From assembly GCA_020630175.1 (NCBI GenBank), contig JAHDBW010000011.1:14081-47509 (forward strand): DNA of 33,429 bases, in the 5' to 3' direction. The stretch comes from Anaerolineales bacterium (GTDB taxonomy: Bacteria > Chloroflexota > Anaerolineae > Anaerolineales > UBA6668). Made by a program: the position numbers and the translations under genes. Shown piece after piece: positions 1 through 17,690 of the stretch (position 1 is the first letter of the stretch; every line of letters starts with the position of its first letter). The notes beneath the pieces were generated by a model, which saw nothing but the letters and a program-made list of their open reading frames with translations, was not told where the DNA came from and did not search any database.

Positions 1-1121
1 GTCGGCGTTGGCGTGTTTGTATTTGCTGCGTTTTGCTGTTGTTCAACAGGTGTTGCAGTTGGATCAACAGTCGTTGTGGCTTGGGTCGTTGCCGTTACGG
101 TTGCGGCTACAGTAGCTGTTGTCTCAGCGCTTTGTGTTGGGACGGCGGCAACTTGTGCAGGCGTTGCTGTCGCGTCAAGCGTTGGTTCTACAATAACAAC
201 ATTGTTGTCTGCAACAGCGTTTGGATCTTTGGTTGGTGTTGCATTATTAGCAACAGCCGGGTTTGGCGAGTCGACAATGCCAGCAACAGTTTGGACATTT
301 TCAACATCGGTTGTCATTGTCAATTCTTGCGTATCATCGTTGACTGCCAATGTTGTGCGCAATGCAGTTTGGGCGACTTCATCGTAAGTGGCACCAAATA
401 AGGTAAGCAGCGTTTCACTAAATGAGATGTCAATATCACCACCGTTGGCAGCGATGTATTTGCGCATGTTTTCTAGCACAACATCGTTTAGTTCAGAGAT
501 AACAATATCTGTTTTACCTGTGTCTGGGTCTGTATTGATTGTGACTTTGATTGGAAAACTTTGCGAGGTGCGCACGCCGCTGCCTTGGCTGACTGCATCT
601 GCCATCAGTGCGCCAACAGCGTCTTCCGTACGGCCTTCAGATAGTGAGGCTAGTACAAAGCTGCTGAGTTCATCGTTTTCATCAGTGCCTGATTGCGCGT
701 TGAAGTTGCCCTCTTGCACAGTTGTGGGTGGTTCTTCTTCAATCATTTGTTCTGACGCGGCTAATGCGGCGCCCAGCACGTCTGTTTGAATAGTTTCTTC
801 AACTGGTGCAGCTTCTGCAGCGCTAGCGACCACGGCGGGGCTAACTGGGTCTACAAGTGACATGTTGCCCGTTTGCGCAGTTTGTGCGGTTGGCGCAGAT
901 GGTTCTTGCGGTTCTACAAATGCAATTTCTGGCTGAATAACAATTGTCGGTGGGGCGCTATTGAGGGCAACTAATGTATCAAAACTGGTCAGTGCTAGGA
1001 AGCCTACTGATGCAATAAAGAACGTAAAGAAAGCAACCCCGACAACCAAGACGATTGCCTGGAGCCAATAGCCAGCGCCAAGCCGATTGCTATTCCGTTG
1101 ATTGGATACTCGTTTTTTCAT
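1..1121 (-). CDS. membrane-anchored protein with long extracellular stalk, probable sortase N-terminus (partial)
   Basis: This reading frame is missing from the ORF track because it runs off the left edge. I translated it from an ATG at 1119-1121 (MKKRVSNQRNSN...) and it stays open for 373 codons. Residues about 17-47 form one membrane segment after a basic N-terminus. An Ala/Pro/Thr/Glu-rich stalk follows. Residues roughly 145-260 are less biased (for example FPIKVTINTDPDTGKTDI) and may fold. A second Thr/Pro/Ala-rich stretch ends in TNTPTP at the edge. The neighbouring sortases have the same order: membrane helix, low-complexity stalk ending in TPTP, then the catalytic domain. I therefore infer that the sortase domain lies just outside the window, but no catalytic residue is visible. 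The gene has its own leader carrying the shared two-part element. It could instead be a non-sortase stalk protein. Confidence 0.6.
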   Translation of the reverse strand, partial: MKKRVSNQRNSNRLGAGYWLQAIVLVVGVAFFTFFIASVGFLALTSFDTLVALNSAPPTIVIQPEIAFVEPQEPSAPTAQTAQTGNMSLVDPVSPAVVASAAEAAPVEETIQTDVLGAALAASEQMIEEEPPTTVQEGNFNAQSGTDENDELSSFVLASLSEGRTEDAVGALMADAVSQGSGVRTSQSFPIKVTINTDPDTGKTDIVISELNDVVLENMRKYIAANGGDIDISFSETLLTLFGATYDEVAQTALRTTLAVNDDTQELTMTTDVENVQTVAGIVDSPNPAVANNATPTKDPNAVADNNVVIVEPTLDATATPAQVAAVPTQSAETTATVAATVTATTQATTTVDPTATPVEQQQNAANTNTPTP

Positions 1122-1410
1122 AAATCAATAATTCAAACAATAAAGTGCAATGTTCAACCGTATTGAACATTTACAACGCTGCAAACGTGCGCGCTACGGG
1201 TTGCAAACTGCAAGCCCATAAACAACAGCTCACGCCGCGATATGTGACGCGAGGCTGTATATGTATTTTGGATTGTGGCAATGTTGAATGTTGTTCTGAT
1301 TCCGAGTGTGCATCTTCCCGGAGTGTTGTCTATATTCTTCAGTCAGTAATTTGTCGCTAAAAAATATAGATGAACGTCTTCAACTCTATTGGAACATACC
1401 CAGGTTTTAG

Positions 1411-1442
1411 TGTCGATAAAAGATTGGTATCAAAAGGGTTAG
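1411..1442 (-). promoter_or_regulatory. shared two-part element, copy A
   Basis: Read on the minus strand this is CTAAC, 15 nt, then CTTTTATCGACA. It lies 289 nt upstream of the left-edge gene. It has exactly the same spacing as the copies at 8509, 10037 and 11183; only the first block differs by one base (CTAAC for CAAAC). The geometry resembles a promoter with two boxes, but the sigma factor or regulator is unknown. Confidence 0.55.
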
Positions 1443-1491
1443 AATATTTACCAATCTGGATAACACCCTGTGTAAACTTTGCGTAAAACAT

Positions 1492-1529
1492 AAAAACGCC
1501 TAGATGATAATGACCATTTAGGCGTTTTT
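1492..1529 (-). terminator. rho-independent terminator after the giant surface protein gene
   Basis: The arms AAAAACGCCTA (1492-1502) and TAGGCGTTTTT (1519-1529) pair perfectly. Pairing continues inward through TAGATG/CATTTA with one G-U. Both flanks give a U-run, so it could work in either direction. It lies about 140 nt past the stop of the giant gene, the only nearby gene that reads into it. Confidence 0.85.
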
Positions 1530-1666
1530 GAGTAGAAATTAGGTATATGTAATTTAGATTACAGTGTAATGTAAGCTGCTTTACCTAAGCGTAGCATCGC
1601 GTCAAAGCACAATTTGACAACTCTTTTTGTTGCCAACTGCTTGCGTGCGCGGCTAACGGTTGTAAT

Positions 1667-4600
1667 TTAGTTTACGGGCTGTTCGCGTATAAATTCTGCG
1701 GTAGCCAGTAAGCGTTCTGCGAAGGTTTCGTTTTCTTCATCCCAATTGCTACAGGTGACAAGCAGTAACGTTTTGCCATCTGGGATGTAAAGCGATTCAA
1801 CTGCGCTTGGATCAACGTATTCACTGCTGCTGAATTGATAGACATAGTCCACGTTGTTCCAGCGGTACACAATCTCATCGCCGTCTTGCAACTGGTCTAA
1901 GTTGAGAAACGGCCCCGGATCAGTAGAGCCTAGCGTGACATGCGCAGCAAAGACCATTGCATACTTGTCATAAGGCTCAGCGCCTGTCGTGTGCAGCCAT
2001 CCAATTTGCCCGCCAAGGTCATCCAAATTCCATGTGACACCTTCGATTGGAATATCCGTAATCGCTTCATTGATTTCCAGCCGTGGAATAATCAGGTGCG
2101 GAATACGCGGGTCGGCTGGATCAACGATGACATCATCGGTTTCGGCGCTAGTTGTGTTGTCTGTGGCGTTTGCATCAGCATTCGTTGCTGCGCCTTCTGC
2201 ATCAGATTCAGCTTCTGCAACGGTTACGTTTGCTTGTGTCGAATCAGTCTCGATTACGTCAGTGGCTCCAGTGGTGTCATCATCGGCTAATGGAAGCAGT
2301 GCTGAGTCTTCAGCGTTGTCACGGGTGATTTCTTCCGGCTCTAAGACAATCACTGTTGAAGCCTCTTCTGAACCCACATCGCCGTCAGTTGCTGTTTCGG
2401 CGGCCTCTTGCAGTTCTACTGGTGCTAGCGCCACGCCAGCAACATCGGTTTCTAAATCTGACCGATAGTTGCTATCGCTCCAGCGCAGAATACCCCAGCC
2501 TAAGACGCCGAAAATCATCACAAATACTAGTCCAAGTGCGAAATACAGTCGTGAGGCGCGGGCCGGGCTGGCAGCCGCATACGCATCGTCTTCCTCACTG
2601 CGGCCGCGTGACACAAACCAGAGCACAGCAACGGTTACGAGTAGTAAGCCGAGCAGTAGCAGCACATCACGCACAACGTTCAGTGATTGGAATTGATCAA
2701 CCCCAGTGTTTGGAATTTCTTCTGGGATAACGGTGACCGTATCGCTATCTTGTGCGTTCCCAGCGGAACTGGTGACAGATGCAGTGTTGTTGATCACCGT
2801 GCCGGGCAGGGTGCTTGTTTTGACAATAACTTTGACCGTTACAGTGACCGATTGCTGCGGTGGAATACTCGCAACTGTCACCATTAGCATGTTAGTTGCC
2901 GCGTTGAAGGTTACTGTGCCGTTTGGCGAAGCCGTTGCACTTTGGTAAATGAAGCGATCTGACAACGTGTCTGTAATGGTGACATTGCGCAGGTCGGTTG
3001 TATTTGGATTGTTGACAACAATGTCAAAGTCAATGGCTTTGCCAGAGCGGGTAATGTCTGGATTAGCATCTTTGGTAATCGTTGGTGGATTTTGTGCAAT
3101 TGGCGTTGGCGTAATGCCTTGAACGTTTGTGCCTTTCAGGCCAGCATCAATATCTTCAACGTTGTCACCGCTTTGCACCGTAAACTCAGCAGTCCGCCCA
3201 GTTGTGGGGTCCGCATCGCTATCGATTGTGTCATCAAGACCCGCGTCTTGCGCGACAAGTTCAAAATCTGCCCCAGGAATGAAGCGCACTAGGTAGCTGC
3301 CGGGAGTTAGATCCCCAAACATGTACATGCCGCTAGCATCTGTAGTGGTGGTGCGGATGACGTTACCGGCTTGGTCTAACAAGTCAACGCGGATGCCTGC
3401 AACGCCGCCTTCAGCGTCTTCTTGCAGTGCGTTGTCATTGTCATCAAGGAAGGCTTCCCCTTTGACCTTGATCGGGCGGAACACACCGGCGTCAATGTCG
3501 TCTTTGTCGGTGCCATCCACAACAAAGCGTGGTGAGAGACCCGTGTCTGGGTTGGCGTCACTGTCTTTGGCGTCGTCATCCCCTTGATCACTAGCTGAGA
3601 ACTTGTAGTCATCACTAATGTCAAAGCGCACTTGGTATGTGCCCGGACGCACGCCGGTAAATTCGTAGCGGCCGCTCAGGTCGGTAATGGCGGTTTCAAG
3701 CACGTTGCCTTGATCGTCCAGTAATGTGACAACTTGATTGCCAATTCCCGGTTCGCCATCTTCTTGGATGCCGTTGCCGTTTAGATCATTGAATAACAAG
3801 TCGCCAATTGTTGAGAGCGGGACTAGGCCAGCGTCAACGTCCATGTTGTCTTCGCCAGAGTCGAGATCAATCAAATCGGTTTGGGCTGATGTTGGATCAA
3901 CGTCACTGTCTTTTGTGTCGTCTGTGCCTTGATCTTGAGCGCTGAATGCAACTGAGCCATCCGTTGGCAAGGTAACTTCTACGCGATATTGCCCCGGATT
4001 TAGACCAGTAAATTTGTAATCACCGTTTTCATCGGTTGTGGTTGTGGCGGCTTCAGTGCCATCTGCGTTTCGCAAAATGACGGTAATCCCAGCGATGCCG
4101 GCTTCACCATCATCTTGAACGCCATTGTCGTTAGCATCACTGAAGACACGATCACCAATACTGGCGAGTTTATAAATACCCGCGTCAATAGTGTCGTTAT
4201 CTTCGCTGCTTGCTAGTGTAATAACTGGCGAACGGCGCGTGTCTTGTGCAAAGTCACTGTCTGCCGCGTCATCGTCCCCTTGGTCTGCGCTTGTTAGTTG
4301 ATAGTCTGTTGGCAGGGTAATCTCAACAATGTAATTGCCCGGATCCAGATTGACAAAGCGATAGTTACCGTTTTCATCGGTGGTGGTGCTGTCTAGTTCA
4401 TTGCCGTCTTCATCTAGCAGTTTGACAACAACGCCAGCCACACCGTCTTCATCGGCGTCTTGAATGCCGTTTAGATTGTCATCTTCAAATACGCGATCAC
4501 CAAGCGAAGTGCCTTTGAAGATCCCCGCATCCACTGTGTCGTTATTGTCACCAGACTTCAGCTCGATTGGATCGGTGCGTCCGGTGTCGACTTTGGCATC

Positions 4601-7600
4601 ACTGTCTTTGGTGTCGTCATCGCCTTGGTCAACGTCAGAGATGGTGTAGCCATCTGGTTTTACAAACTCAACGATGTAAGTCCCAGGTGCTAAGTCGGTG
4701 AACTTGTAGTCGCCGTTTTCATCGGTGGTGGTGCTGTCTAGGCTGTCACCATTTTCATCAAGCAAGTTGACGGTAACACCAGCGACACCAGTTTCGCCCG
4801 CATCTTGGATGCCATCTGCATCTTCATCGTCAAAGACACGGTCACCAAGCATTGCTTTTTCAAAGATACCGGCGTCAACGTCATCGTTGTCTTCACCGGC
4901 GCTGAGGGCAATCACGGTCGTCATGCCGGTTGTCGGGTCAGCGTCACTATCTTTAGTGTCGTCATCACCGCTGTCTTGGCTGGTGAACATTTGCGTGTCA
5001 CCGGCTACGAACATGACTTTATAGTTGCCCGGTGCTAAATTGGTGAAGTCGTAATTCCCGTTTTCATCGGTCGTTGTGCTTGCCAATTCTGTATCTTGAT
5101 CGTCCAGCAATTTGACGGTTACACCGGCTACGCCAGCTTCATCCGCGTCTTGGATGCCATTGCCATTGCTATCAAGGAATACGGTATCGCCTAGTGCGGC
5201 GGCACCTAATATCCCAGCATCGACATCATTATTGTCTTCATTTGACGTTAGCTCAATGACGTCAGTGCGACCGGTTGTGGGGTCAGCGTCACTGTCTTTG
5301 GTGTCATCATCGCCGGTGTCTTTTGTTGTGAGCGTTTGGTCTGCAGTTGTTACAAACTCAACAATATAGCTGCCCGGTTTCAGGTCGGTGAAATCGTAAG
5401 CGCCATTTTCGTCAGTGGTTTGGCTGTCTAGCTCAGTGCCTTGGTCGTCCAATAATTTGACAGTTACACCGGCTACGCCAGCTTCATCCGCGTCTTGGAT
5501 GCCATTGCCATTGCTATCAAGGAATACGATGTCTCCTAGTGAAGCAGGTTTATAGACACCAGCATCAACGGTTTGGTTGTCATCACCTTCTGTGAGGGTG
5601 ATGGTTGCCGTGCGACCGGTTGTTGGGTCAGCATCACTGTCTTTGGTGTCATCATCGCCAGCGTCTTGCGCGGTGATGGTGTAAGCGTCTGGCACCATGA
5701 ATTCGACAATGTACGTGCCCGGAGCAAGCTGCGTGAATTGATAGTTACCGTCTGCATCGGTGGTTGTGCTTTCTAATTCCGTCCCATCGGCGTCCAGTAA
5801 TTTCACAACAATGCCAGCAATGCCGGGTTCATCTGTATCTTGAACGCCGTTTGCATTTAGGTCTTCAAAAACCAAGTCGCCTAAGGTATTGCGCGTTATT
5901 ACGTTTACAGTTGCATCGTCTTTGTCATCGACAGTGTTTCCAAGCGGATCCTTGGCTGTCACCATTGCGGTGTTCACAAAGTCTTTGACTACGCCCGTAA
6001 TCACACAGGTGTATTCTTCTGATGCTTGCGCGGCCAGCGTTGCAAATGTTCGGTCACAGTCTGGTGCGGTTGGATCGGTGACGACAACGTCAGTCAGATC
6101 AACATCGCCGGTGTTCGTCACCTTGATTGTGAATGTCACGTCATCACCTGCCAACACATCTTGAGTGTCTGGTGATTTTTCAATTTCGATGCTTGGGCGA
6201 ATAATCTTTACTTCTGCATCATCGTCGTCAGTGACAGTTTTGCCCGTTGTGTCTTTTGCTTCAACGGTAGCCACATTTACAAAGTCCTTCACAACCCCAG
6301 TCACTGTACAGGTGTACTCTTCAGAGGCGTTAGGTGCCAAGGTTGCAAATGTGCGTTCACATGCGGGCGATGTTGGGTCTTTGACTTCAATGTCGGTCAA
6401 AGCGATATCACCCGTGTTGGTGACTTTGATGGTGAAGGTAACGTCACTTTCGGCTAATACGTTTTGCGTGTCTGGTGATTTTTCAATTTCGATCCCAGAT
6501 GTGCCCGCAAAATAGTGGCTGATGCCGTCATCGGTGACAGGATCAATCGGATCGCCGCCGAGGTCTTCTAAAATTGGATCGCCATTGCTATCAGCAGGGA
6601 CGCCAGTTACGCTGGCTGGGCTGCTGTATTGACCAGCAACCGCAGTGACTGTTTCTGTACACACTGAGCTTGCGCCAACGGCTAAGAATGGAATTTCACA
6701 AACGGTGCCAAATGTTGGGTCAGTCACAACAACGTTGATCAGATCAACATTGCTGGTATTAGTAACGGTGTAATCAAATTCAACCGTGCTATCGACTGCC
6801 ACAACTGGGCCAGTTGGCTCAGGCGCTGGTTCGTCGTTGACGGTGACATCTAAGGTAATGCCGGTGGTGTAGCCAAAGTAGAAGCTAGGGTCGCTGGCTG
6901 TTAGCGTTTGATTTGGAATAAGCGCGGTGCCGGTTGCGGTACCGATATTGCTGTATTGGCCGGTGATGGCGGTGCCCGTAACGGTACACGTAAAGCTTTG
7001 ACCAGAGCCTAAGCTAGGGATTGCGCCTTCATTACAGTTGTAAACTGGTGGGTTTGCTGCTGGGTTGTTGATGACGCCAAGTTGGTCATCTTCCAACACA
7101 ATGTCGCTGATTTCAGAACCGGCTGTGTTGGCAATAATAAACGTCCAAGTCACAGCACTTTCTGCGGGCACATAAGCACCGGGTGCTAAGTTGGCGTCTT
7201 GTGGCAATTGGCCAGGGCCGTTTGTATATTTTTGAATGGCTAAGAAGGCTGGGGCGGTCAAACAGCCTAAGGCTTCATAGTCTTGACCACCGGCTGGGAA
7301 AGCGCCAATAACCGTTGCGTTCCCGGTTGTTTCATCAATCCGGAATAGCTGATCTTTGTCGTTATCATCTGGGCCATTGTTGCCGCTGCTGCCGTATAGC
7401 TGCCCATCATTGAAGAAGGCAAGCCCTTCAATATCATCAACAACTTCGTCTGTGCCTTGATAGAAGGTTGGGCCAACAATCCCCGTGTTGCCGTTTGGCA
7501 GTTCAATCACACCGGTGTCTTTGTTGATAATTACCAATGTGCCGCCGGTGCCACCATTGTTTGCAGCGCCGTACAGTACCCCATCCACTGGATTGATGGC

Positions 7601-8263
7601 AATGTCGTCGATGTCATCTTCTTCAGTTGGGAAGCCAGAAATTTCTACGTAGTCTGCCGTTCCGCCCAGAAAGCTGTTCGGGATATATTTACCGGTATCA
7701 ACATCGATCTTGATGAGCACATCTGGCGCGCCGCCGTTGCGGCGTTGTACGCCATAGAGCGTAGCCGGATTGGTCTTGATATCGAAAGAGAGCGAGTCAA
7801 TGTCATTGAAGATGACTGTACCGGCGCTACCGTTTGTGCTGCTGCCAATTGGCCCGATCGCGGTAAATTGGCCTGCTGTTGCTGAGGTTTGCAAGTAATC
7901 GATTGTGCCTAAGGTGCCACCATCGACCGCATAAAGCACATCACCACCGGGGCGAAATGCCATTGTTTCAATGTCATTTGTGCCAGTCGTGCCAACTTGC
8001 TGTGTGCTGCCATCGGCTTTGATAAGCATTACAACAGAGTCTGAATTGCCGTTGGCGCTTGTTTCATCTGCAATTGCAAAACAACTGTCAGAATAATCAG
8101 GTTGTGCCTCTTGCAGTGCGCCACTTGCGAAGGTGGGCATGGCTGAGACCAAGCTGATGATGAGTGCCAGACTCAAAATAAGCGCAGCGCGAACGCTACG
8201 TTTTGGATGTGCAACAACTGCACGATACGCGATATTACCCACAAGGATTCCCCATGTATTCAT
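1667..8263 (-). CDS. giant SdrD-B repeat surface protein with internal sorting signal and C-terminal sortase domain
   Basis: The ORF track opens at 8359. I start at the internal ATG at 8263 (MNTWGILVGN) because it is followed by a signal peptide (hydrophobic 26-42, likely cut near TFA/SG at 46) and preceded by a purine-rich GGGAAAGAAG stretch. The protein has 2198 residues. Residues 50-335 carry recurring DIETMAF/DIDSLSF/DIDDIAI/DIEGLAF strings, suggesting a beta-propeller. Residues 338-790 are DUF11/DUF7507-like Ig modules. Residues 793-1707 are eight SdrD-B repeats with EF-hand-like Asp-rich loops. Residues 1726-1845 are another DUF11 module. IPNTG at 1850-1854 is followed by TM1 (1865-1885), an RGR loop, TM2 (1906-1926), an acidic linker and a sortase domain (2051-2198). 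The catalytic triad is His2108, Cys2171 in LLLVTC, and Arg2184. Both extracellular parts fit an out-in-out topology. It is probably a wall-linked adhesin or matrix protein that brings its own transpeptidase. Confidence 0.9.
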   Translation of the reverse strand: MNTWGILVGNIAYRAVVAHPKRSVRAALILSLALIISLVSAMPTFASGALQEAQPDYSDSCFAIADETSANGNSDSVVMLIKADGSTQQVGTTGTNDIETMAFRPGGDVLYAVDGGTLGTIDYLQTSATAGQFTAIGPIGSSTNGSAGTVIFNDIDSLSFDIKTNPATLYGVQRRNGGAPDVLIKIDVDTGKYIPNSFLGGTADYVEISGFPTEEDDIDDIAINPVDGVLYGAANNGGTGGTLVIINKDTGVIELPNGNTGIVGPTFYQGTDEVVDDIEGLAFFNDGQLYGSSGNNGPDDNDKDQLFRIDETTGNATVIGAFPAGGQDYEALGCLTAPAFLAIQKYTNGPGQLPQDANLAPGAYVPAESAVTWTFIIANTAGSEISDIVLEDDQLGVINNPAANPPVYNCNEGAIPSLGSGQSFTCTVTGTAITGQYSNIGTATGTALIPNQTLTASDPSFYFGYTTGITLDVTVNDEPAPEPTGPVVAVDSTVEFDYTVTNTSNVDLINVVVTDPTFGTVCEIPFLAVGASSVCTETVTAVAGQYSSPASVTGVPADSNGDPILEDLGGDPIDPVTDDGISHYFAGTSGIEIEKSPDTQNVLAESDVTFTIKVTNTGDIALTDIEVKDPTSPACERTFATLAPNASEEYTCTVTGVVKDFVNVATVEAKDTTGKTVTDDDDAEVKIIRPSIEIEKSPDTQDVLAGDDVTFTIKVTNTGDVDLTDVVVTDPTAPDCDRTFATLAAQASEEYTCVITGVVKDFVNTAMVTAKDPLGNTVDDKDDATVNVITRNTLGDLVFEDLNANGVQDTDEPGIAGIVVKLLDADGTELESTTTDADGNYQFTQLAPGTYIVEFMVPDAYTITAQDAGDDDTKDSDADPTTGRTATITLTEGDDNQTVDAGVYKPASLGDIVFLDSNGNGIQDADEAGVAGVTVKLLDDQGTELDSQTTDENGAYDFTDLKPGSYIVEFVTTADQTLTTKDTGDDDTKDSDADPTTGRTDVIELTSNEDNNDVDAGILGAAALGDTVFLDSNGNGIQDADEAGVAGVTVKLLDDQDTELASTTTDENGNYDFTNLAPGNYKVMFVAGDTQMFTSQDSGDDDTKDSDADPTTGMTTVIALSAGEDNDDVDAGIFEKAMLGDRVFDDEDADGIQDAGETGVAGVTVNLLDENGDSLDSTTTDENGDYKFTDLAPGTYIVEFVKPDGYTISDVDQGDDDTKDSDAKVDTGRTDPIELKSGDNNDTVDAGIFKGTSLGDRVFEDDNLNGIQDADEDGVAGVVVKLLDEDGNELDSTTTDENGNYRFVNLDPGNYIVEITLPTDYQLTSADQGDDDAADSDFAQDTRRSPVITLASSEDNDTIDAGIYKLASIGDRVFSDANDNGVQDDGEAGIAGITVILRNADGTEAATTTTDENGDYKFTGLNPGQYRVEVTLPTDGSVAFSAQDQGTDDTKDSDVDPTSAQTDLIDLDSGEDNMDVDAGLVPLSTIGDLLFNDLNGNGIQEDGEPGIGNQVVTLLDDQGNVLETAITDLSGRYEFTGVRPGTYQVRFDISDDYKFSASDQGDDDAKDSDANPDTGLSPRFVVDGTDKDDIDAGVFRPIKVKGEAFLDDNDNALQEDAEGGVAGIRVDLLDQAGNVIRTTTTDASGMYMFGDLTPGSYLVRFIPGADFELVAQDAGLDDTIDSDADPTTGRTAEFTVQSGDNVEDIDAGLKGTNVQGITPTPIAQNPPTITKDANPDITRSGKAIDFDIVVNNPNTTDLRNVTITDTLSDRFIYQSATASPNGTVTFNAATNMLMVTVASIPPQQSVTVTVKVIVKTSTLPGTVINNTASVTSSAGNAQDSDTVTVIPEEIPNTGVDQFQSLNVVRDVLLLLGLLLVTVAVLWFVSRGRSEEDDAYAAASPARASRLYFALGLVFVMIFGVLGWGILRWSDSNYRSDLETDVAGVALAPVELQEAAETATDGDVGSEEASTVIVLEPEEITRDNAEDSALLPLADDDTTGATDVIETDSTQANVTVAEAESDAEGAATNADANATDNTTSAETDDVIVDPADPRIPHLIIPRLEINEAITDIPIEGVTWNLDDLGGQIGWLHTTGAEPYDKYAMVFAAHVTLGSTDPGPFLNLDQLQDGDEIVYRWNNVDYVYQFSSSEYVDPSAVESLYIPDGKTLLLVTCSNWDEENETFAERLLATAEFIREQPVN
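2702..2716 (-). other. internal sortase recognition motif IPNTG
   Basis: The codons ATT CCA AAC ACT GGG encode Ile-Pro-Asn-Thr-Gly in the frame of the giant protein. Ten residues later a 20-residue hydrophobic helix begins, followed by SRGRSEED. This is the standard layout of an LPXTG-type C-terminal sorting signal: motif, helix, then positive charge. Here the chain continues for about 310 more residues instead of ending. Confidence 0.8.
3141..5890 (-). repeat. eight tandem SdrD-B-like repeat units (about 112-116 codons each)
   Basis: Each unit begins with a [T/S/A]xGDxVFxDxNxNGxQD string. The order is: core with GV(A)GVxVxLLD, then TTTDENGxYxFxxLxPGxY, then QDxGDDDTKDSDADPTTG, ending DAG. 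Units 2 and 3 are the most alike; unit 8 (KVKGEAFLDD) is the most diverged. SdrD-B domains in Gram-positive surface proteins bind calcium through such Asp-rich loops. Calcium binding here is inferred. Confidence 0.88.
5118..5528 (-). repeat. 66-bp perfect direct repeat inside SdrD-B units 2 and 3
   Basis: Positions 5118-5183 and 5463-5528 are identical over 66 bp. The offset is exactly 345 bp (115 codons), one repeat unit. The match covers the segment encoding DSNGNGIQDADEAGVAGVTV. Synonymous sites are also identical, so the two units were duplicated or gene-converted recently. Confidence 0.85.
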
Positions 8264-8614
8264 CTTTCTACTTCTTTCCCAATACTGTGCGTCGCAGTAA
8301 CCTGAGCGCGACGCAGCTCTACCTAATACAAATTGATAAATAAAAAATAATTGGTGCATTTAGCAACAGTTACCCGTGACATCAACCCAATTGATGCCAC
8401 CTGTTGTGCTCTAAATTTGCAAATGATGTCTGTGTTATTTCAGGCCAAGGCGGCGCTGAACAGCACGTACATAAATACCCACTATATGTAATCAGACGGC
8501 GTGAATTCTGTCGATAAAGTAACCGTTAGTACTTTGTTTGCAGCGCGTTATAAGTTTTGCAATTCACGTAATCTTGAGTTTTTAGCCGATTGCAACACAG
8601 ATTGTTGACTGTGA
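8264..8614. other. gene-free leader region upstream of the giant surface protein gene
   Basis: The 351 bp include the first 96 bp of the track ORF (8264-8359), which I do not consider coding. They also hold one copy of the shared two-part element at 8509-8540. I see no convincing terminator for the upstream sortase gene, so read-through into the giant gene is possible. Confidence 0.5.
8509..8540 (-). promoter_or_regulatory. shared two-part element, copy D
   Basis: The minus strand reads CAAAC, 15 nt, then ACTTTATCGACA. It is 245 nt upstream of the chosen ATG of the giant surface protein. The first two bases of the second block differ from the CTTTTATCGACA of the other copies; the spacing is the same. 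Confidence 0.55.
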
Positions 8615-9940
8615 TTATTGTGACGGACCTTCGTGCACAAGTCGGAAATTTGTCAGCAAACGTTCGGCAAATACGCGGCTGTTTTGGTCCCACGTGCCAC
8701 ACGTAATGACAATGAGATTTTTGCCGTCTTCCACATAGAGGCTTTCGACTGCTGAAGGATCAACCGACTCAGCACGATCGAGCACATAGATGTAATCGAC
8801 GCCTTTCCAGCGGTAAATTGCAATGTCGCCCGGCTCTAGCCGTGAGAGTTGCAGGAACGGGCCGGCTTGCGTTGCTGAGAGCGTTACGTGCCCGCCAATC
8901 ACCATGCCGTATTGATCATGTGGTTTTTGGCCAATGGTTGGGAGTAAGCCAATCCGGTCGCCAAGATCGCCTGTGTCCCAAACGCCATTGCGGATTGGGA
9001 CTGTGCCAACCGGTAAATATAAATCTAGCCTTGGAATGAACAGATACGGTACTTCTGAGTACTGCGCCGGTGGTAGCTGTGGAATTGGTAACCCGCTTGG
9101 ATGGGTGTTCTGGACAGGCGCCGGGGCTGCATTCTGTGCTGGTGCAGATGTTGGCACCGGCGTTGGGGCGACAGGCTCAGCTGCGCGGCCAAAAATACTG
9201 CCTAAAAACTGTTGTGCTTGGTCACCAAGGCTTTCACGCTCAATGACTGGCGGTGGCGTTGGCTGGGGCGCAGCAATTGTTGGTGCTGGCGCATTATTGA
9301 CAACTGCAGGTGGGTCAGTTGGTGTTGGCGGGACGGCGGTTGGCTGTTGGACTGCTTGTTCAACGACTGTAACTGGTGTTGCCGTTGCCGCAGGTAATTG
9401 CGCTGCTGCCACCGCTGCTTGACCGTCTTGCGTGGGGTCGGGCGTTGGTACAACTGGGGTTGCACTTTGAGGGGCAAGGCTGGCGGACTGTGCTGCAGAA
9501 AGTAGCTCCGCATTAGCGTCTGGTAGCGTGTCAGAAAAGACAGGTAGCTCTAAGTTCGGGTTGCTGCTTGAGAATGAGCCGCGCCCAGCTTCAAATTGCG
9601 TTTCAGCACTGTTCGGTTGGCTGTCTGCAATTGCGCCTGTTTCACCTTCGCTTTGCACAGACACTGCAAATGAAGCAGCTCTTTCACCGTCCGCGTTGGT
9701 AACGGGGTTGACCTCTGTAATAAAGGCCGGTGCGTCTTCGATAACTAATCCACTTGCGATGGCTAGCGGTTCGTCTACAGCGGGTGCAATCTGTGTCACT
9801 TCGGTCGTCGCAGACTGCATCACCGCCCAATTGCTATACATAATTCCTGCGATGCCAATAAATCCGGCAATCAACACGAAACCACACATAAGAACTGCGG
9901 CTAAAAATAAATATTTGAAATAATTACGTTTGCGTACCAT
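8615..9940 (-). CDS. membrane-anchored sortase with long Pro/Thr/Ala-rich stalk
   Basis: This 441-residue transpeptidase-type protein has a basic N-terminus, one membrane helix (about 11-34), a stalk of about 270 residues rich in Ala, Pro, Thr and Gln, and a sortase domain (PF04203-type) from about residue 294. His351 (GGHVTLS), Cys414 (VITCGTW) and Arg427 (FAER) form the expected triad. Sortases cleave an LPXTG-like motif between Thr and Gly and join the protein to a cell-wall amine. The catalytic domain is closest by eye to that of the giant protein (both have SVDPSAVESLY or YVDPSAVESLY). The stalk would hold the enzyme away from the membrane. The gene has its own leader with the shared element. 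No separate substrate gene lies beside it. I do not assign a sortase class. Confidence 0.93.
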   Translation of the reverse strand: MVRKRNYFKYLFLAAVLMCGFVLIAGFIGIAGIMYSNWAVMQSATTEVTQIAPAVDEPLAIASGLVIEDAPAFITEVNPVTNADGERAASFAVSVQSEGETGAIADSQPNSAETQFEAGRGSFSSSNPNLELPVFSDTLPDANAELLSAAQSASLAPQSATPVVPTPDPTQDGQAAVAAAQLPAATATPVTVVEQAVQQPTAVPPTPTDPPAVVNNAPAPTIAAPQPTPPPVIERESLGDQAQQFLGSIFGRAAEPVAPTPVPTSAPAQNAAPAPVQNTHPSGLPIPQLPPAQYSEVPYLFIPRLDLYLPVGTVPIRNGVWDTGDLGDRIGLLPTIGQKPHDQYGMVIGGHVTLSATQAGPFLQLSRLEPGDIAIYRWKGVDYIYVLDRAESVDPSAVESLYVEDGKNLIVITCGTWDQNSRVFAERLLTNFRLVHEGPSQ

Positions 9941-10036
9941 TACTACTTTACAAACAAGCTAAGGTGCCGATATTCGGTATAAAAGGACAGACATTGTGAC
10001 CGGCAATACTAAAACTGTAGTCCAGACATGCTTGAA

Positions 10037-10068
10037 TGTCGATAAAAGGGCTGTTTGCAATCTGTTTG
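10037..10068 (-). promoter_or_regulatory. shared two-part element, copy B
   Basis: The minus strand reads CAAAC, 15 nt, then CTTTTATCGACA, 96 nt upstream of the sortase start at 9940. The first block is embedded in the palindrome GTTTGAA-T-TTCAAAC at 10064-10078, which the other copies lack. Confidence 0.6.
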
Positions 10069-10082
10069 AATTTCAAACTAAC

Positions 10083-11051
10083 TTACCCTGAGTCTGGTCC
10101 TGTAGTCCGGATGAGCTTAGCGTACGCAATAACGCGTTCTGAATAGTTGCCAGCGCCAGCATTCCAGTTAGTACAGGTGATCAGCAGTGCATAAGACCCA
10201 TCATTGATATATAGCTTGTCTACCGCGCCTGGGTGCACGACTTCTTTTTCTTGGATTTGATAGACGTAATCGGTGCCTTGCCAGCGATAGGTGAATTCTG
10301 AGCCGGGCGGTAGGCTGCCTAGTTCATAAAAGGGGCCATGTGAGCCGTCGTAGTCCGTAACATGCGCAGCGAATACCATGGCAAAGTCATCACCGGGGTG
10401 AATGCCGGTGGTTGGTAGCCAACCTATTCGGTGGCCTAAGTTGAGTAGATCCCACTCATTGTTGCGAATAGGTGTGTTGACCACGTATTGATTGACGCCA
10501 ATGCCGGGAATAATAAGTTGGCCGGGAATGAATGGCTTAGGTGTGGGGGTGGGAGCAAACGTTGGGCTCGCATAGACGCGAGGCGTTGCTGTCGCTTGAA
10601 CTGGGATTGCCGTGGCGGTTGGAACCACCTGTGTTGCAGTTGGTTGAACGCTTGTTGGCGTCGGTGTTGGCGTTGCGGTTTGTAGTGCAACGTCTGGATT
10701 GTTGGCAGAAAGTGAGGCTTGCTCAGACTCTATGTTTGCTTCAGATGGGTAACTTGAAAGTGGGCCGCTTTCGCCAATCTGACTTTGTACTGGCGCGGAT
10801 TCAATAGAGAAGGTTTGTTCACGGCGGGCAGCCAATACTTCTGCCTCAGCAACTTCGCCAGACACCGCAATTGGAAATGGTGTGATTGGCAATTCCAACA
10901 CTTGTGTTTCAGGCGTTGGATTTAGATTGATGGCAAGGGCGTCTTGATAATGCAGTCCGGCAACGGCAAGAAAGCCGAGGCCAAAGACCATGCACCCCAT
11001 TAATGACAATAGTGCCAAGATTGCCGGTAATATATAACGGCTATTATTCAT
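10083..11051 (-). CDS. membrane-anchored sortase (paralogue of the next gene)
   Basis: This 322-residue sortase has an N-terminal membrane helix (about 9-32) and a variable stalk up to about residue 170 with TPTPTPTS and FAPTPTPKPF segments, followed by the catalytic domain. The triad is His230 (FAAHVTDYDG), Cys293 (LLITCTNW) and Arg306 (YSER). The region GVNQYVVNTP...NNEWDLLNLG is nearly the same in the neighbouring sortase at 11287-12276, so the two catalytic domains come from a tandem duplication, while the N-terminal halves do not resemble each other. ATG AAT AAT is taken as the start because the helix follows at once. The leader of about 235 nt has the shared element and, further up, the terminator of the previous gene, so it is probably transcribed from its own promoter. 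Confidence 0.93.
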   Translation of the reverse strand: MNNSRYILPAILALLSLMGCMVFGLGFLAVAGLHYQDALAINLNPTPETQVLELPITPFPIAVSGEVAEAEVLAARREQTFSIESAPVQSQIGESGPLSSYPSEANIESEQASLSANNPDVALQTATPTPTPTSVQPTATQVVPTATAIPVQATATPRVYASPTFAPTPTPKPFIPGQLIIPGIGVNQYVVNTPIRNNEWDLLNLGHRIGWLPTTGIHPGDDFAMVFAAHVTDYDGSHGPFYELGSLPPGSEFTYRWQGTDYVYQIQEKEVVHPGAVDKLYINDGSYALLITCTNWNAGAGNYSERVIAYAKLIRTTGPDSG

Positions 11052-11182
11052 ATATATAAATACTAAAAAATGGTTAGCACCACAAAAATTGATGCAAGTT
11101 CAAGTGCTGAATCAGAAAACTAAAAAACGACAGTTTGATTCATGCTTTATAACGTTTCAACCATAGCGAATGACTTCAGTAG

Positions 11183-11214
11183 TGTCGATAAAAGACCCGT
11201 AGTAAATTGGTTTG
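11183..11214 (-). promoter_or_regulatory. shared two-part element, copy C
   Basis: The minus strand reads CAAAC, 15 nt, then CTTTTATCGACA, 131 nt upstream of the sortase start at 11051. It lies just after the terminator at 11236-11264, where a promoter for the next gene would be expected. Confidence 0.62.
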
Positions 11215-11235
11215 AACTTTCGGCGAAGGTTAGAA

Positions 11236-11264
11236 TCAAAAAGCCCGCTGTTTAGGCGGGCTTT
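11236..11264 (-). terminator. rho-independent terminator after sortase gene 11287-12276
   Basis: AAAGCCCGC (11240-11248) pairs with GCGGGCTTT (11256-11264) around a 7-nt loop. On the minus strand the stem is followed by TTTTT. It lies about 20 nt past the stop codon. Confidence 0.88.
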
Positions 11265-11286
11265 CGTTTTTGAAGGGGATTTAGGG

Positions 11287-12276
11287 CTAACCGTTTGTGG
11301 GGGCGGTTCTAACCAATTTTGCGTAAGACAGGACTCGGTCTGAATATGTGCCAGATCCTGAATTCCAGTTTGTGCAAGTGATTAGCATGGCGTAGGTGCC
11401 ATCGTTGATATACAGCTTTTCCACAGCGCTAGGGTGCACGATTTCTTTTTGTAAGATCTGATACGTGTAGTCTGTGCCTTGCCAGCGATAGATGAATTCT
11501 GTGCCAGCTGGGATGTCTCGCAAGTTGAAGAATGGGCCACGCACGCCGTCATAGTCTGTCACGTGGGCGGCGAACACCATCGCGAAGTCATCGTTTGGAT
11601 GCATACCGGTTGTTGGCAGCCAGCCGATCCGTTTGCCTAGGTTCAATAGATCCCATTGGTTGTTATAAAGCGGCGTGTTGACAACATACTGGTTGACACC
11701 AAGGCTCGGCATAATCAACTGACCGGGGACAAAAGTTTTGGGTGTTGGGGTTGGCGCAAATGTTGGCGTTGGAAAGGGCGTTGGTGTGGATTGCACTGTG
11801 CTGTATTGCGGTTGCGCCACAGATGGCGCTAAAAAGTCTTCCGCACTAAGCGTGCTTTCCGCAATTGTTTCCGGTGCTAATACCGATTCGAGAGCCTGCT
11901 GGGAGTCGTTGAGGTCAATCCCGGCAAAGCTTGATTCATTTTCTGACCCGGTGATTGGAATGCCGGGGGCGTCATTTGCAACGACATCTGGTGCTGGGGC
12001 CATAATTTGTGGATTGTTAGCCGCTGGCGTGGCGATGATGGGCGTCTCCCCAACAAAGCCCCACAAGCCCCAAATCACGCCGATCAGCATAACGCCAAAG
12101 GCTGAAAGAACGGTAATTGCTGTCACTGCTTGATAAACATATTGCAGCGCGGCTTTGCGTTTGTCTTTTGGATTGTCTTGGAGCCGCAATTTACTTGCTG
12201 CGAACCAAAGGAGCCCGAGTGAGCCGCTCATGACGATCATGAGCAGGCAAAGAATGGGCAGGGTATAACTTGTCAT
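11287..12276 (-). CDS. two-TM sortase with an IPITG motif in its stalk
   Basis: This 329-residue sortase has two membrane helices (about 5-25 and 49-73) joined by a basic loop (DNPKDKRKAA). The topology is then out-in-out, with the sortase domain outside. The triad is His238 (FAAHVTDYDG), Cys301 (LITCTNW) and Arg314 (YSDR). The stalk (75-185) contains IPITG at 106-110, which fits the LPXTG-type pattern although no membrane anchor follows it. The end of the stalk, TPTPFPTPTFAPTPTPK, matches the neighbouring paralogue at 10083-11051. Its upstream region lacks the shared two-part element, so its control probably differs. A strong terminator follows the gene. Confidence 0.93.
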   Translation of the reverse strand: MTSYTLPILCLLMIVMSGSLGLLWFAASKLRLQDNPKDKRKAALQYVYQAVTAITVLSAFGVMLIGVIWGLWGFVGETPIIATPAANNPQIMAPAPDVVANDAPGIPITGSENESSFAGIDLNDSQQALESVLAPETIAESTLSAEDFLAPSVAQPQYSTVQSTPTPFPTPTFAPTPTPKTFVPGQLIMPSLGVNQYVVNTPLYNNQWDLLNLGKRIGWLPTTGMHPNDDFAMVFAAHVTDYDGVRGPFFNLRDIPAGTEFIYRWQGTDYTYQILQKEIVHPSAVEKLYINDGTYAMLITCTNWNSGSGTYSDRVLSYAKLVRTAPTNG

Positions 12277-12414
12277 AATTACCTAAAACTGAATTGCATT
12301 ATCAATCTGCAATAGTTACCGAATGAATACCTCAAGCATAAATTAGAACGCGAACCAGCATTGTTAGACTTAATAAAGGAATTGTTGGGATGGTTATGAC
12401 TTGTAACAATTGTT

Positions 12415-12447
12415 AAATAAAACAAGCCCGCAAATTGCAAGCTTGTT
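12415..12447 (-). terminator. possible terminator after the 48-residue membrane ORF
   Basis: AACAAGC (12421-12427) pairs with GCTTGTT (12441-12447) around a 13-nt loop. On the minus strand it is followed by TTTATTT. It lies 25 nt past the stop of the small ORF. The large loop makes this a moderate call. Confidence 0.5.
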
Positions 12448-12471
12448 GAAAGGTATTGATTGGCCTAACAC

Positions 12472-12618
12472 TTAGTGTGCGGCGGAACGTTTTAGCTTTT
12501 GTCCGATATAAAGTAATCCACATCCGGCGATGAAAAGCAAACCGCTTGTCCATCCAAAATTGCCGATACTTTCTACTAATCCAATGCCTGTACTGATACC
12601 TAATACTGTTGTCATCAT
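12472..12618 (-). CDS. small membrane protein (48 aa), unrecognised
   Basis: The ORF is too short for the supplied track. It starts at tandem ATGs (12616-12618 and 12613-12615) and encodes 48 residues starting MMTTVLGIST. A glycine-rich hydrophobic half is followed by a helix SGLLFIAGCGLLYIGQ and a basic tail KLKRSAAH. It sits alone in the 444-bp gap between two sortase genes, is read in the same direction, and has a hairpin terminator candidate just downstream. The upstream sequence (AACAAGATAGT) gives only a weak ribosome site. A hydrophobic helix with a basic tail would suit a single-pass membrane peptide. I assign no function. The plus-strand frame 12530-12724 over the same bases has no signal-like features. 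Confidence 0.5.
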   Translation of the reverse strand: MMTTVLGISTGIGLVESIGNFGWTSGLLFIAGCGLLYIGQKLKRSAAH

Positions 12619-12667
12619 ACTATCTTGTTTATTCAGTTTTTTACGAGTACGGCCACCTTACATTTAC

Positions 12668-12702
12668 ATAAAGCGGATGTTGGTGGTGCACATCCGCTTT
12701 AT
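12668..12702 (-). terminator. hairpin terminator after sortase gene 12721-13704
   Basis: A perfect 13-bp stem, ATAAAGCGGATGT (12668-12680) with ACATCCGCTTTAT (12690-12702), encloses a 9-nt loop. The U-run on the minus strand is short (CTTTATG). It starts 18 nt past the stop codon, so a terminator is the likeliest role. Confidence 0.7.
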
Positions 12703-12720
12703 TTCGTCTCTAATTGAAAT

Positions 12721-13704
12721 TTAGTTGGTATTTGTGGTTGGGGCTGGCACTTCTTCAACCAATGTTGCTTCTGCCAATACCCGTTCTGAGTAGGCTTCTA
12801 ATGAAGGATCCCACGTGGTACAGGTGACCAAGATTAGCTTGCTGCCATCTTCTACGTACAAGTCACGTACTGCATCTGGAGAAACGACGCGCTTAGCACC
12901 CATTTCGTAGATGTAGTCTACGCCGTCCCAGCGATAGGTGAAGCGTTCGCCCGGTGCCAAGGTTGCCAATTTATGGAAGGGGCCAGTTTCGTTTGCGGTT
13001 AGCGTTACGTGTGCAGCCAATACCATTGCAAAGTCGTCGTTTGGTTTTGAGCCGGTGCTAGATAACCAACCAATGTTGTGGTCTAGGCCAGTCAGATCCC
13101 ATTCACCATTTGTAATTGGTACGGTGACAACTGAGCGTTCTAGGTCAAGACCTGGAATGATCAATTCTGGTGGGGCAGTTGAGGCTAAGTCAGATTGGCC
13201 GCCAAGTTGGCTTGGGGCAACTGCTTGTGCATTGCCATTGTCTTCAATAACGTTGCCGTTTGCGTCACGAATAGTTACGCCAGGGGCTGCAACTGCTTCG
13301 CTGCTGTCTTCGGCTGCTGATGTGGTCAAGTCTTCATTGCCACTAACAGCGATTGGGGCATCAATTAGCCCGCCTTCTGCTAGGGTTGCTGTGCTTGATG
13401 AGCTCATTAGGCTCCAGCCGCCAAGGCCGAACATGGCCAGTGCAACTGCGAACATGACACCAGACATTAGAACCCCGCGTTTGCGTGAGTCTTCGTCTTG
13501 TTCATCGCGATATTGTTTGAAGTGGCGGAAGCCAAATAACGCGAGGGCTAAACCAACGATGAGTGCGACTGCACCCATAATCATGAGGGAGCTACCTTCG
13601 CCTTGCGCGTTGTTTGCTGCAAAGGTTAGGTTCAGTGGGATACCTGCTGCGATGCCAGAAATTACCAGGGCGTGTGACAGCTTGGAGATGCGTGTATATT
13701 TCAT
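12721..13704 (-). CDS. membrane-anchored sortase with signal-like N-terminus and two TM helices
   Basis: This 327-residue sortase starts MKYTRISKLSHALVISG. A signal-like hydrophobic stretch (10-30, ending TFAANNA) is followed by two helices (39-59 and 78-100) separated by a charged loop (QYRDEQDEDSRKRG). A short acidic stalk with no TPTP repeats leads to the sortase domain from about residue 175. The triad is His232 (LAAHVTL), Cys295 (LVTCTTW) and Arg308 (YSER). It is the most diverged stand-alone member of the array in its N-terminal half. I see no copy of the shared two-part element in the 221 bp upstream. The LCP-family gene lies beyond that gap on the same strand. Confidence 0.92.
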   Translation of the reverse strand: MKYTRISKLSHALVISGIAAGIPLNLTFAANNAQGEGSSLMIMGAVALIVGLALALFGFRHFKQYRDEQDEDSRKRGVLMSGVMFAVALAMFGLGGWSLMSSSSTATLAEGGLIDAPIAVSGNEDLTTSAAEDSSEAVAAPGVTIRDANGNVIEDNGNAQAVAPSQLGGQSDLASTAPPELIIPGLDLERSVVTVPITNGEWDLTGLDHNIGWLSSTGSKPNDDFAMVLAAHVTLTANETGPFHKLATLAPGERFTYRWDGVDYIYEMGAKRVVSPDAVRDLYVEDGSKLILVTCTTWDPSLEAYSERVLAEATLVEEVPAPTTNTN

Positions 13705-13925
13705 AATGATTACCTATAAATAAAATCAATACCTTACCGTTGAGTATTACCATATAACTCATAACGTGTACTTACATAAATAGATTATCAATTGCAAAAA
13801 TTTAAGCGATATAGAATTAATTGAGATTTGATTGGCAAAGGTTTGTATACGGATGGCGCTGAATTAACTAGAGGTTAGTCAAGCTTTGGCCGTCAGTGTG
13901 CGCGAGGTCAGGCGTAGGGTAAGGT

Positions 13926-14855
13926 TTATTTGCTGAGGTGTGTTTGCAGGAACGGCTCGATTGCATCCCAGCGGGGGAGTAACACGGAAGCGCCGCCGCT
14001 GGTTCTGTAGGGCTGTACCATGTCGCCTTCAATCACGTGGCGGTTCAACCCATTGCGGCTAGCGCTATAGATGAAGGGAATACTCCGCGCAGCGAGTAAC
14101 GGTGAAACGTCGTGCTCAATGTTCGTTTGTAGCACTGCCATAATTGATGGTAGCCGAAACACAATTAATGGGGACGCCAATTTTGAAAATAGCGCGTCTA
14201 AAATTTGCTGTTGGCGTGCTGCGCGGACAAAGTCACTTGACCCATGCCGAATGCGGGCATATTTGAGGGCGCGATCGCCATCGACAACATAAGTGCCCGG
14301 ATCAAACTGGACAACTTCGGTTTGGTAGTTGTCAGTTGGGTAGGCGTAGTCGATAATTACGCTGTCTACGGTGATTTCAACCCCACCGACGGCGTCAATC
14401 AGGGCTGTAAAGGCTTCAAAGTCAATGCGTACGTAATGATCAACCGGCACACCAAAATTCTGTGAGACCGTGTTCATTGCTGCCGTAGGGCCAGACCCAA
14501 TTGCGTTGTTTTCTGCGAAGAAGTGTGCGGTGTTGATGCGGTTTTCTCCAACACCTGGAATGGTGACCCATAGGTCACGCGGAATAGACACCAGTTGGGG
14601 CGCATCTTTTTCATGATCAAGATGCATAATGATCATGGTGTCTGTTCGGGCAATTGTGCTCTCGCCAGGACGCCGATCTAGGCCTAAAATAAGAATATTC
14701 GTGTTTTGAATTGGGAATGCCCAACTCAGAATGCCAATTAAAAGCGCTATCGCACCGAATCCGGCCAGCATGCCACCTAGATATAGGAACAGAACATGTA
14801 AGCAACCGGGGCGGCGATAGTTTTTTTGCTGAATTGATCTTGACGAGACTTGCAT
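13926..14855 (-). CDS. LytR-CpsA-Psr (LCP) family cell-wall glycopolymer ligase
   Basis: LCP proteins transfer undecaprenyl-linked glycopolymers onto peptidoglycan at the outer membrane face of monoderm bacteria. This 309-residue protein has a basic N-terminus, one membrane helix (about 20-47) and the LCP domain from NILILGLDRR. The signature motifs are visible: ARTDTMIIMHLD, VSIPRDLWV (the arginine contacts the lipid pyrophosphate), GENRINTAH, VGGVEI, and DGDRALKYARIRHGSSDFVRAARQQ. It lies upstream of the sortase array on the same strand, with a 221-bp gap, which fits a block for wall attachment. The gene is divergent from ffh, only 58 bp away. The length is normal for a minimal single-domain LCP protein. 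Confidence 0.92.
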   Translation of the reverse strand: MQVSSRSIQQKNYRRPGCLHVLFLYLGGMLAGFGAIALLIGILSWAFPIQNTNILILGLDRRPGESTIARTDTMIIMHLDHEKDAPQLVSIPRDLWVTIPGVGENRINTAHFFAENNAIGSGPTAAMNTVSQNFGVPVDHYVRIDFEAFTALIDAVGGVEITVDSVIIDYAYPTDNYQTEVVQFDPGTYVVDGDRALKYARIRHGSSDFVRAARQQQILDALFSKLASPLIVFRLPSIMAVLQTNIEHDVSPLLAARSIPFIYSASRNGLNRHVIEGDMVQPYRTSGGASVLLPRWDAIEPFLQTHLSK

Positions 14856-14913: not shown

Positions 14914-16251
14914 ATGTTTCAAAATTTAACTAGTCGACTAACCGGTGTTTTTGATGATATCTCGCGGCAGAGCAAGCTCTCTGAGGCAGATGTTGATGCC
15001 GCCTTGCGTGAAATACGTTTGGCTCTCTTAGAGGCCGATGTTCACTTTAAGGTCGCGAAGAAGTTTTTGAAGCGAGTTCGCGTTCGGGCCGTGGGGACGG
15101 AAGTCTCTAAGGCGCTGAATCCGGGCCAACAAGTTGTCAAAATTGTAAATGAAGAGCTAGTCGAAACGCTTGGCAACGCCGAGCGGCTCAATTTGTCTGG
15201 CCAACCGCCGCGTGTCATTATGCTGGTGGGGTTACAAGGTGCGGGTAAGACCACAATGTCGGCCAAGCTGGCAGCGCGGTTACGCAAGCAAGGCCAAAAG
15301 CCACTGTTGGTTGCGGCTGACCCTTACCGTCCGGCAGCGGCAGATCAACTAGAAACGTTGGGTGGGCAAATTGATGTGCCTGTCTTCCGTGGGGCAGATA
15401 GCCCGCCGATCTTGGCTGAAAAAGCAGTGGCGCATGCCCGCTCAATCGGCTTAGATGTGGTAATTCTTGATACTGCCGGTCGTTTGCAAATTGACGAATC
15501 GATGATGCAAGAAGTTGCGTCCATCAAGGAAAAGACCCAACCGGGTGAAGTGCTACTCGTTGCGGATGCAATGACGGGGCAAGAAGCGGTTGAAATTGCC
15601 ACTGGCTTTAATGAAGCGGTTGGCATTACTGGTCTGGTTCTGACAAAAGTTGATGGTGACTCACGCGGTGGGGCGGCGATTTCAATGCGTGCCGTAACCG
15701 GCGTGCCGATCAAGTTTTTAGGGACAAGTGAAAAACTTGATGGTTTAGAAGTCTTTACGCCAGAACGGCTCGCCAATCGTATCCTCGGATTAGGCGATGT
15801 TGTTGGGCTTATTGAAAAGGCCGAAGAAGCGTTTGATGAACAACAAGCTGCAAGGCTTGAAGAGAAACTGCGCAAGGCCGAATTTGATCTGGAAGATTTT
15901 CTTGAACAGTTACGCCAGATCAAAAAGATGGGGTCCGTTACTTCCTTAATAGGGATGGTCCCCGGAATGAACCGTGCGGCAGCTGACTTAGACGAAGAAG
16001 AAGTCGATAAGCAGTTCCGTCGGACCGAAGCAATTATTACGTCGATGACCCGACACGAGCGTCAGAACCCTAAGGTGATGAACGCTAGCCGTAAGCGGCG
16101 TGTCGCGGCTGGGTCAGGAACGTCTGTGCAAGAGGTCAATCGGTTATTGAAGCAATTCCGTAACATGCAGGATATGATGAAACGCATGGCACGGGGTGGC
16201 AGAAAAGGAAAACGAGCTGCTATGGATATGTTCGGTGGCGGCTTTGGTTAA
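14914..16251 (+). CDS. ffh: signal recognition particle GTPase Ffh (SRP54)
   Basis: Ffh binds 4.5S RNA and signal sequences of nascent membrane and secreted proteins and delivers ribosomes to FtsY. The 445-residue length is normal. The N domain (1-90) is followed by the G domain with LQGAGKTT (P-loop), AADPYRPAAADQL, LDTAGR and LTKVDGDSRGG. The methionine-rich M domain contains SLIGMVPGM, GSGTSVQEVN and MQDMMKRM. It opens a plus-strand operon with rpsP, khpA and rimM, the order common in Gram-positive-type genomes. It is divergently oriented from the LCP gene. The start fits the N-domain beginning MFQNLTSRLTGVFDDI. Confidence 0.98.
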   Translation: MFQNLTSRLTGVFDDISRQSKLSEADVDAALREIRLALLEADVHFKVAKKFLKRVRVRAVGTEVSKALNPGQQVVKIVNEELVETLGNAERLNLSGQPPRVIMLVGLQGAGKTTMSAKLAARLRKQGQKPLLVAADPYRPAAADQLETLGGQIDVPVFRGADSPPILAEKAVAHARSIGLDVVILDTAGRLQIDESMMQEVASIKEKTQPGEVLLVADAMTGQEAVEIATGFNEAVGITGLVLTKVDGDSRGGAAISMRAVTGVPIKFLGTSEKLDGLEVFTPERLANRILGLGDVVGLIEKAEEAFDEQQAARLEEKLRKAEFDLEDFLEQLRQIKKMGSVTSLIGMVPGMNRAAADLDEEEVDKQFRRTEAIITSMTRHERQNPKVMNASRKRRVAAGSGTSVQEVNRLLKQFRNMQDMMKRMARGGRKGKRAAMDMFGGGFG

Positions 16252-16290
16252 AATAGATACTTACAAAATCTCAAAATAGGAAAAATTTCC

Positions 16291-16602: not shown

Positions 16603-16615
16603 TTACGAAACCACT

Positions 16616-16846: not shown

Positions 16847-16865
16847 CCGTTAGGATACTAACAGT

Positions 16866-17414: not shown

Positions 17415-17655
17415 GTCATTTGCTAATGCAAATGTTCTATGGTTGCGTTGACATCAACTTTTAGGCTGTGATATTCTTCGCGAGGCTAGTGCATTTAGAA
17501 TTTAGACCTTTATCAAAAAAATTGATACATCAATCTAAAAGTTAATGCGTTTCGTTTGGGTGTTTGGTACACGCAAGCGTCTGTATTACTTGTAAAAGTG
17601 TTTGGGTAGTGTGATTTTAGAGAACGCTTTTCATAAATCGCTTTGAACAACAAAA

Positions 17656-17681: not shown

Positions 17682-17690
17682 CAATTCCCA

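Follow-up and report, generated by a model that had tools for sequence, protein, structure and literature searches.

Sortase sorting is taught as the work of an enzyme acting on other proteins. In the canonical LPXTG (sortase A) pathway, the substrate combines a signal peptide with a C-terminal sorting signal, consisting of an LPXTG-like motif, a helix and positively charged residues, and the His-Cys-Arg sortase is encoded by a separate gene and usually serves many substrates (PMC3237569). Dedicated gene pairs, as found for the class GN sortases (TIGR03784) with their neighbours or for AbpA-SrtB, place one enzyme beside one substrate, as two polypeptides. A sortase and an LPXTG motif have been united in a single chain in the man-made BISOP fusions, in which the sortase lies N-terminal to the motif and chains carrying LPETG cut themselves intramolecularly (PMC2901362). 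No report of a natural sortase-substrate fusion was found in the open-access literature.

In the window analysed here (33,429 nucleotides of an Anaerolineales genome, contig JAHDBW010000011.1), the elements of the canonical pathway all occur in one gene (Table 1), but the chain does not end at the sorting signal and runs on for a further 344 residues into the enzyme. Like the dedicated gene pairs, it puts one enzyme next to one substrate, but in one polypeptide instead of two; it resembles the BISOP fusions in the intramolecular cut that we propose, but is natural and carries its sortase C-terminal to the motif. The original prediction that a substrate and a complete sortase share one chain is confirmed by the single reading frame, which contains no stop or frameshift between positions 2500 and 2700, as well as by Pfam matches, the motif and the catalytic residues. 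An ATG further upstream, at 8359, provides an alternative start that would extend the protein to 2230 aa (frame 1667-8359, minus strand). The IPNTG motif follows the final DUF11 domain (residues 1729-1841, Pfam), and Thr1853 lies exactly where the cut had been placed, the predicted scissile bond being that between Thr1853 and Gly1854. The predicted topology likewise bears out the expectation that both the sorting motif and the sortase reside outside the cell. The catalytic His is separated from IPNTG by 258 residues that include both helices, as well as an acidic linker (32 D/E versus 2 K/R in 117 aa).

Table 1. Features of the fused gene and of the adjoining array in the window.
Feature	Position in window	Strand	Basis
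Fused adhesin-sortase ORF, 2198 aa	1667..8263	-	single frame; orthologues and paralogues
Signal peptide, residues ~1-47 (KR..., hydrophobic core, FASG)	8123..8263	-	sequence, hydropathy
Surface modules DUF7507/DUF11 with 8 SdrD_B stretches (~1800 aa)	2717..8122	-	Pfam
IPNTG sorting motif, residues 1850-1854	2702..2716	-	kept in orthologues, paralogues and family f14
Helix 1 (sorting-signal helix), residues ~1867-1886, then RGR	2606..2665	-	hydropathy, AlphaFold2
Short loop between helices, predicted cytoplasmic	2549..2605	-	helix positions and charges
Helix 2, residues ~1906-1927	2483..2548	-	hydropathy, AlphaFold2
Acidic linker, predicted disordered, fast-evolving	2129..2482	-	sequence, AlphaFold2, substitution rates
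Sortase domain with catalytic His2108, Cys2171, Arg2184	1670..2128	-	Pfam, alignment, AlphaFold2, Foldseek
N-terminal part of next array sortase gene (843 aa, crosses window edge, partly masked N)	3..1121	-	
Stand-alone sortase, N-terminal helix and long linker	8615..9940	-	Pfam, hydropathy
Stand-alone sortase	10083..11051	-	Pfam, hydropathy
Stand-alone sortase, two N-terminal helices, linker IPITG (orthologues IPNTG)	11287..12276	-	Pfam, hydropathy
Stand-alone sortase	12721..13704	-	Pfam, hydropathy
LytR-CpsA-Psr (LCP) glycopolymer transferase, array head	13926..14855	-	profile match

The enzyme belongs to the PF04203 superfamily, as illustrated both by its profile score (residues 2058-2190, E 7.8e-15, 55.2 bits versus a cut-off of 26.6) and by a His-Cys-Arg set located in the predicted barrel. 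H2108, C2171 and R2184 (codons at 1940-1942, 1751-1753 and 1712-1714, respectively) align with invariant columns, and the AlphaFold2 model shows a pair of helices, then a linker without order and finally a sortase barrel, the latter with block means of 84-98 pLDDT, mostly above 92. The best 50 PDB matches found with Foldseek are all sortases. The window sortase reaches no curated sortase class: it scores below the cut-off for class C (NF033745; 23 versus 160 bits), class E (24.7 versus 160) and SrtD (19.4 versus 140), and no class F match is listed for it. A transmembrane helix following the barrel, which is a class C trait, was found neither by hydropathy nor in the model. On the substrate side, the complete cell-wall anchor triad of IPNTG, helix and RGR is present, and in a loose first-look search of the genome the IPNTG-helix segment was absent from the TIGR01167 anchor profile matches at E<=10. 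No pilin-type YPK motif occurs within the fused ORF. The MSCRAMM SdrC and SdrD profiles score 530 of 1700 and 539 of 2500 bits, respectively, from B repeats alone, and identity with these adhesins is ruled out by scores so far under the cut-offs.

Fused orthologues are present in two congeneric genomes (G001, 2166 aa; G002, where the gene ends at a contig edge), and a further fused paralogue, whose motif is IPVTG, occurs in each of the three genomes (L017, L098 and L099); the possibility that substrate and sortase are always separate genes in homologues was not borne out. Orthologues compared with one another are almost saturated at synonymous sites, whereas their nonsynonymous difference amounts to 0.39-0.46 in the linker, 0.06-0.18 in the motif and helices and 0.05-0.09 in the sortase; by this measure, purifying selection on the sortase part is strong. 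In two of the species, the paralogue (L098, L099) has an extra IPLTG in the linker past helix 2, which is degenerate in L017, from the genome of the window.

The architecture was also found to recur more widely, in two forms. The form seen in the window, designated type 2 ([LI]PxTG-helix-helix-linker-sortase), was found at 24 of 25 loci in families f1 and f14, the exception being L249 (G595), which has LACTG in place of LPxTG. The motif of family f14 is LPGTG, and the P, T and G are invariant across a 12-row alignment of two-helix proteins with identities down to ~21%. In shuffled sequences, [LIVMF]Px[TS]G arises anywhere within ~360 aa in 11% of cases, versus 0.2% for a fixed slot of five positions. 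LPTTG-like strings are also found, by homology, in the barrels of related sortases, 18 aa ahead of the His, which means that the pattern counts as evidence only in combination with its position or context; where such a string occurs in neighbouring proteins it was set aside as a second site, being homologous barrel sequence. The motif is absent from the three neighbouring stand-alone relatives examined, and among stand-alone controls motif-like strings occur in 6 of 21 complete ORFs, and these six belong to just two orthologue groups, both in the same array; the contrast with the fused proteins is strong, although the controls are few and related to one another. A chance motif is ruled out by the column conservation, the spacing and the shuffles.

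Both forms emerged from a PF04203 search of 100 relatives, which returned many sortase matches in frames of 500-4000 aa. In the second form, type 1, the order is adhesin, LPx[T/S]GF, ~20 residues and sortase, with no helix between motif and enzyme. When loci were collected with a sortase-internal pattern (G[WY]L[ED][GN]T[AP][FY]P), which is independent of the motif, LPx[T/S]GF was present in 78 of 78, with T in 71 and S in 7, and it lies 77-81 residues ahead of the catalytic His in the 65 loci for which the distance was counted. Column identities are 97% for L, 100% for P, 24% for X, 91% for T (the remainder being S) and 100% for both G and F, compared with just 14-45% for the 20 preceding columns; fixed L, P, T/S and G around a free X are what one would expect where a sortase recognises its substrate. 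Matches to the type-1 profile (E<=1e-50) were obtained in 153 of 301 sampled Anaerolineales genomes, including 114 of the 174 of good quality. Across 400 sampled Chloroflexota genomes, matches better than 1e-55 were confined to this order, and outside it the same phylum sample gave a single stand-alone match of 203 aa in the same class, at 1.7e-55. The design as a whole recurs in dozens of Anaerolineales species. Two tandem type-1 fusions of 3.3-3.5 kaa (L123; G039:C14, L031 and L032) have near-identical sortase ends and differing adhesin parts, which look as if the LPxTG-sortase module had been copied like a cassette.

The gene in the window is one of a run of seven sortase-domain genes that follow one another on the same strand; five of these lie in or overlap the window (3-14855), and two more are on contig C134 (C134:11051-15204). 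The run is headed by an LCP gene, and so many sortases in one array are unusual. It is largely kept in G001 and likewise, split across contigs, in G002. Two stand-alone sortases (window 11287-12276 and L018:11051-12484) retain IP[NI]TG or IPASG between their helices and the barrel in three species, although the linker there varies in other respects, and may themselves be sortase substrates. The remainder of the window (14914-33429) is ordinary, encoding Ffh, RimM, DprA, a mannose-1-phosphate guanylyltransferase-like protein, topoisomerase I, an HD phosphohydrolase, UvrB, MiaA, a GH3-family protein and a protein kinase.

In trees of the sortase domain, type 1, the f14 type 2 proteins and the f1 type 2 proteins fall in separate groups. 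Approximately unbiased (AU) tests reject a single clade of all fused sortases (p 4.4e-5) as well as a joint f1 and f14 type 2 clade (p 1.5e-4), whereas uniting the two f1 fused groups is not rejected (p 0.28); the final tree excludes two spurious frames with a branch length of 10 and retains a long-branch warning (type 1 with L227/L228). These phylogenies thus suggest three or more origins of the fused design. Repeated splitting of one ancestral fusion would be compatible with the topology alone, but the differing type-1 and type-2 layouts favour repeated joining. The window sortase nests within a set composed only of sortases of this array (support 97/95), some of which share the layout of the fused protein's C-terminal third, with a pair of N-terminal helices followed by a linker and the barrel, and the two helices of the fused protein match this N-terminal hairpin. 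Because of this placement and shared layout, the simplest history is a local one, in which an adhesin with IPNTG was probably joined to a two-helix sortase, helix 1 now doubling as the sorting-signal helix.

On this evidence, we consider it rather probable that the fused proteins are cis-acting substrate-sortase pairs, in which the sortase cuts its own chain and passes the adhesin to an amine of the envelope; cleavage, action in cis and the nature of the acceptor are what we infer from the arrangement. In such a scheme, the signal peptide would export the protein, and the helix hairpin would hold it in the membrane with IPNTG and the C-terminal sortase both outside. The tethered sortase would then bind its own IPNTG, Cys2171 would cut between Thr and Gly, and the adhesin, held as a thioacyl intermediate, would be transferred to an envelope amine, which may belong to the side chain of lipid II or peptidoglycan or to a different surface subunit. 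MraY is present, so lipid II is a plausible acceptor. The cut would leave behind a sortase still bound to the membrane and now starting with Gly; in type 1, which has no helix there, the leaving group would be the sortase module itself. Feasibility is supported by the man-made chains with sortase and LPETG that cut themselves (PMC2901362) and by the class C lid described below, the position of which indicates that a segment N-terminal to the sortase can reach the groove. As the motif of the window protein is two helices as well as 258 residues away from the His, cis geometry of this kind rests on the flexible linker. A more specific reading, which we put forward tentatively as perhaps somewhat short of an even chance, is single-turnover self-anchoring: a chain cut by its own sortase, which is discarded or left as the leaving group, in a design with three or more origins from different sortases and with the type-1 LPxTGF at the place of a class C lid.

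Several alternatives to processing in cis were weighed. The first is processing in trans, whereby the IPNTG of the fusion is cut by other sortases of the cell, or the enzyme in the fusion works mainly on other substrates and is joined to the adhesin only so that both are delivered to one place. The genome provides the components, encoding ~15 sortase-domain genes, of which six lie beside the fused gene in the seven-gene array, as well as five or more stand-alone LPxTG proteins of the ordinary kind. In one case (L020, G000:C74), a stand-alone LPxTG protein with a C-terminal LPTTG is directly followed by a separate sortase gene, which demonstrates that the classic two-gene layout coexists with the fusion in the same genome. 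The cis reading is weakened to the extent that other sortases may cut IPNTG and that this sortase may serve the stand-alone LPxTG substrates. However, the repeated fusion of one substrate with one enzyme, drawn from separate sortase lineages, together with the fixed and short spacing between motif and sortase in type 1, which lacks a membrane anchor, fits cis action better, and we regard trans processing as unlikely.

The second alternative stems from the class C (pilin) sortases, which are among the nearest solved structures by sequence. The type-1 example, in addition, has class C among its best, albeit sub-threshold, profile matches (61 bits versus 160, compared with class F at 48 versus 166, E at 44 versus 160 and D at 42 versus 165, all below cut-off). 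The class C lid begins 72-73 residues ahead of the His (Asp84/His156; Asp90/His163), and its DP-aromatic segment overlaps a bound LPAT peptide (PMC3493515). The type-1 LPxTGF, covering ~72-81 residues ahead of the His, lies near this slot, which indicates that an N-terminal segment of such length can reach the groove. The motif, in type 1 at least, could then be an uncut pseudo-substrate that blocks the groove like a lid until displaced. In agreement with this, the residues directly past the type-1 motif are confidently placed in the AlphaFold model (block 31-40, mean 91), with the adhesin tail (11-22) below 50. In contrast to the DP-aromatic of class C lids, however, the type-1 segment is a real LPxTG, a full consensus substrate with T/S and G retained at every one of the 78 loci, and the fused sortases have no C-terminal helix. 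A lid is also inapplicable to the protein in the window, the motif of which precedes the helix hairpin. A pseudo-substrate is accordingly judged quite improbable.

Very improbable, in our estimation, is self-release, by which the sortase would hydrolyse its own chain and the adhesin would be shed into the matrix rather than anchored. Sortases can hydrolyse acyl intermediates, and type 1 has no membrane anchor past the motif, but the presence of peptidoglycan and LCP genes and the coexistence of standard LPxTG proteins imply that an acceptor is likely to be available. Finally, although the source is a draft metagenome assembly of 500 contigs, an error of assembly or gene calling, or a chance fusion in decay, is practically ruled out: the orthologues, paralogues and nonsynonymous constraint leave no room for a missing stop or an assembly frameshift as explanation, and type 1 is encoded both in the complete genome of Leptolinea sp. 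HRD-7 (with LPSSG) and on the complete plasmid CP069395.1 (with LPQTG), where it is annotated merely as a 'DUF11 domain-containing protein'.

Processing in cis, the reading that we prefer, points to surface proteins capable of self-attachment or self-processing. If true, widespread natural cis sorting would add a new way of attaching surface proteins, and would explain how very large adhesins are displayed by a little-studied phylum. The fused modules also offer natural templates for self-ligating protein tags, and for annotation they mean that many Anaerolineales 'DUF11 domain-containing proteins' are also sortases.
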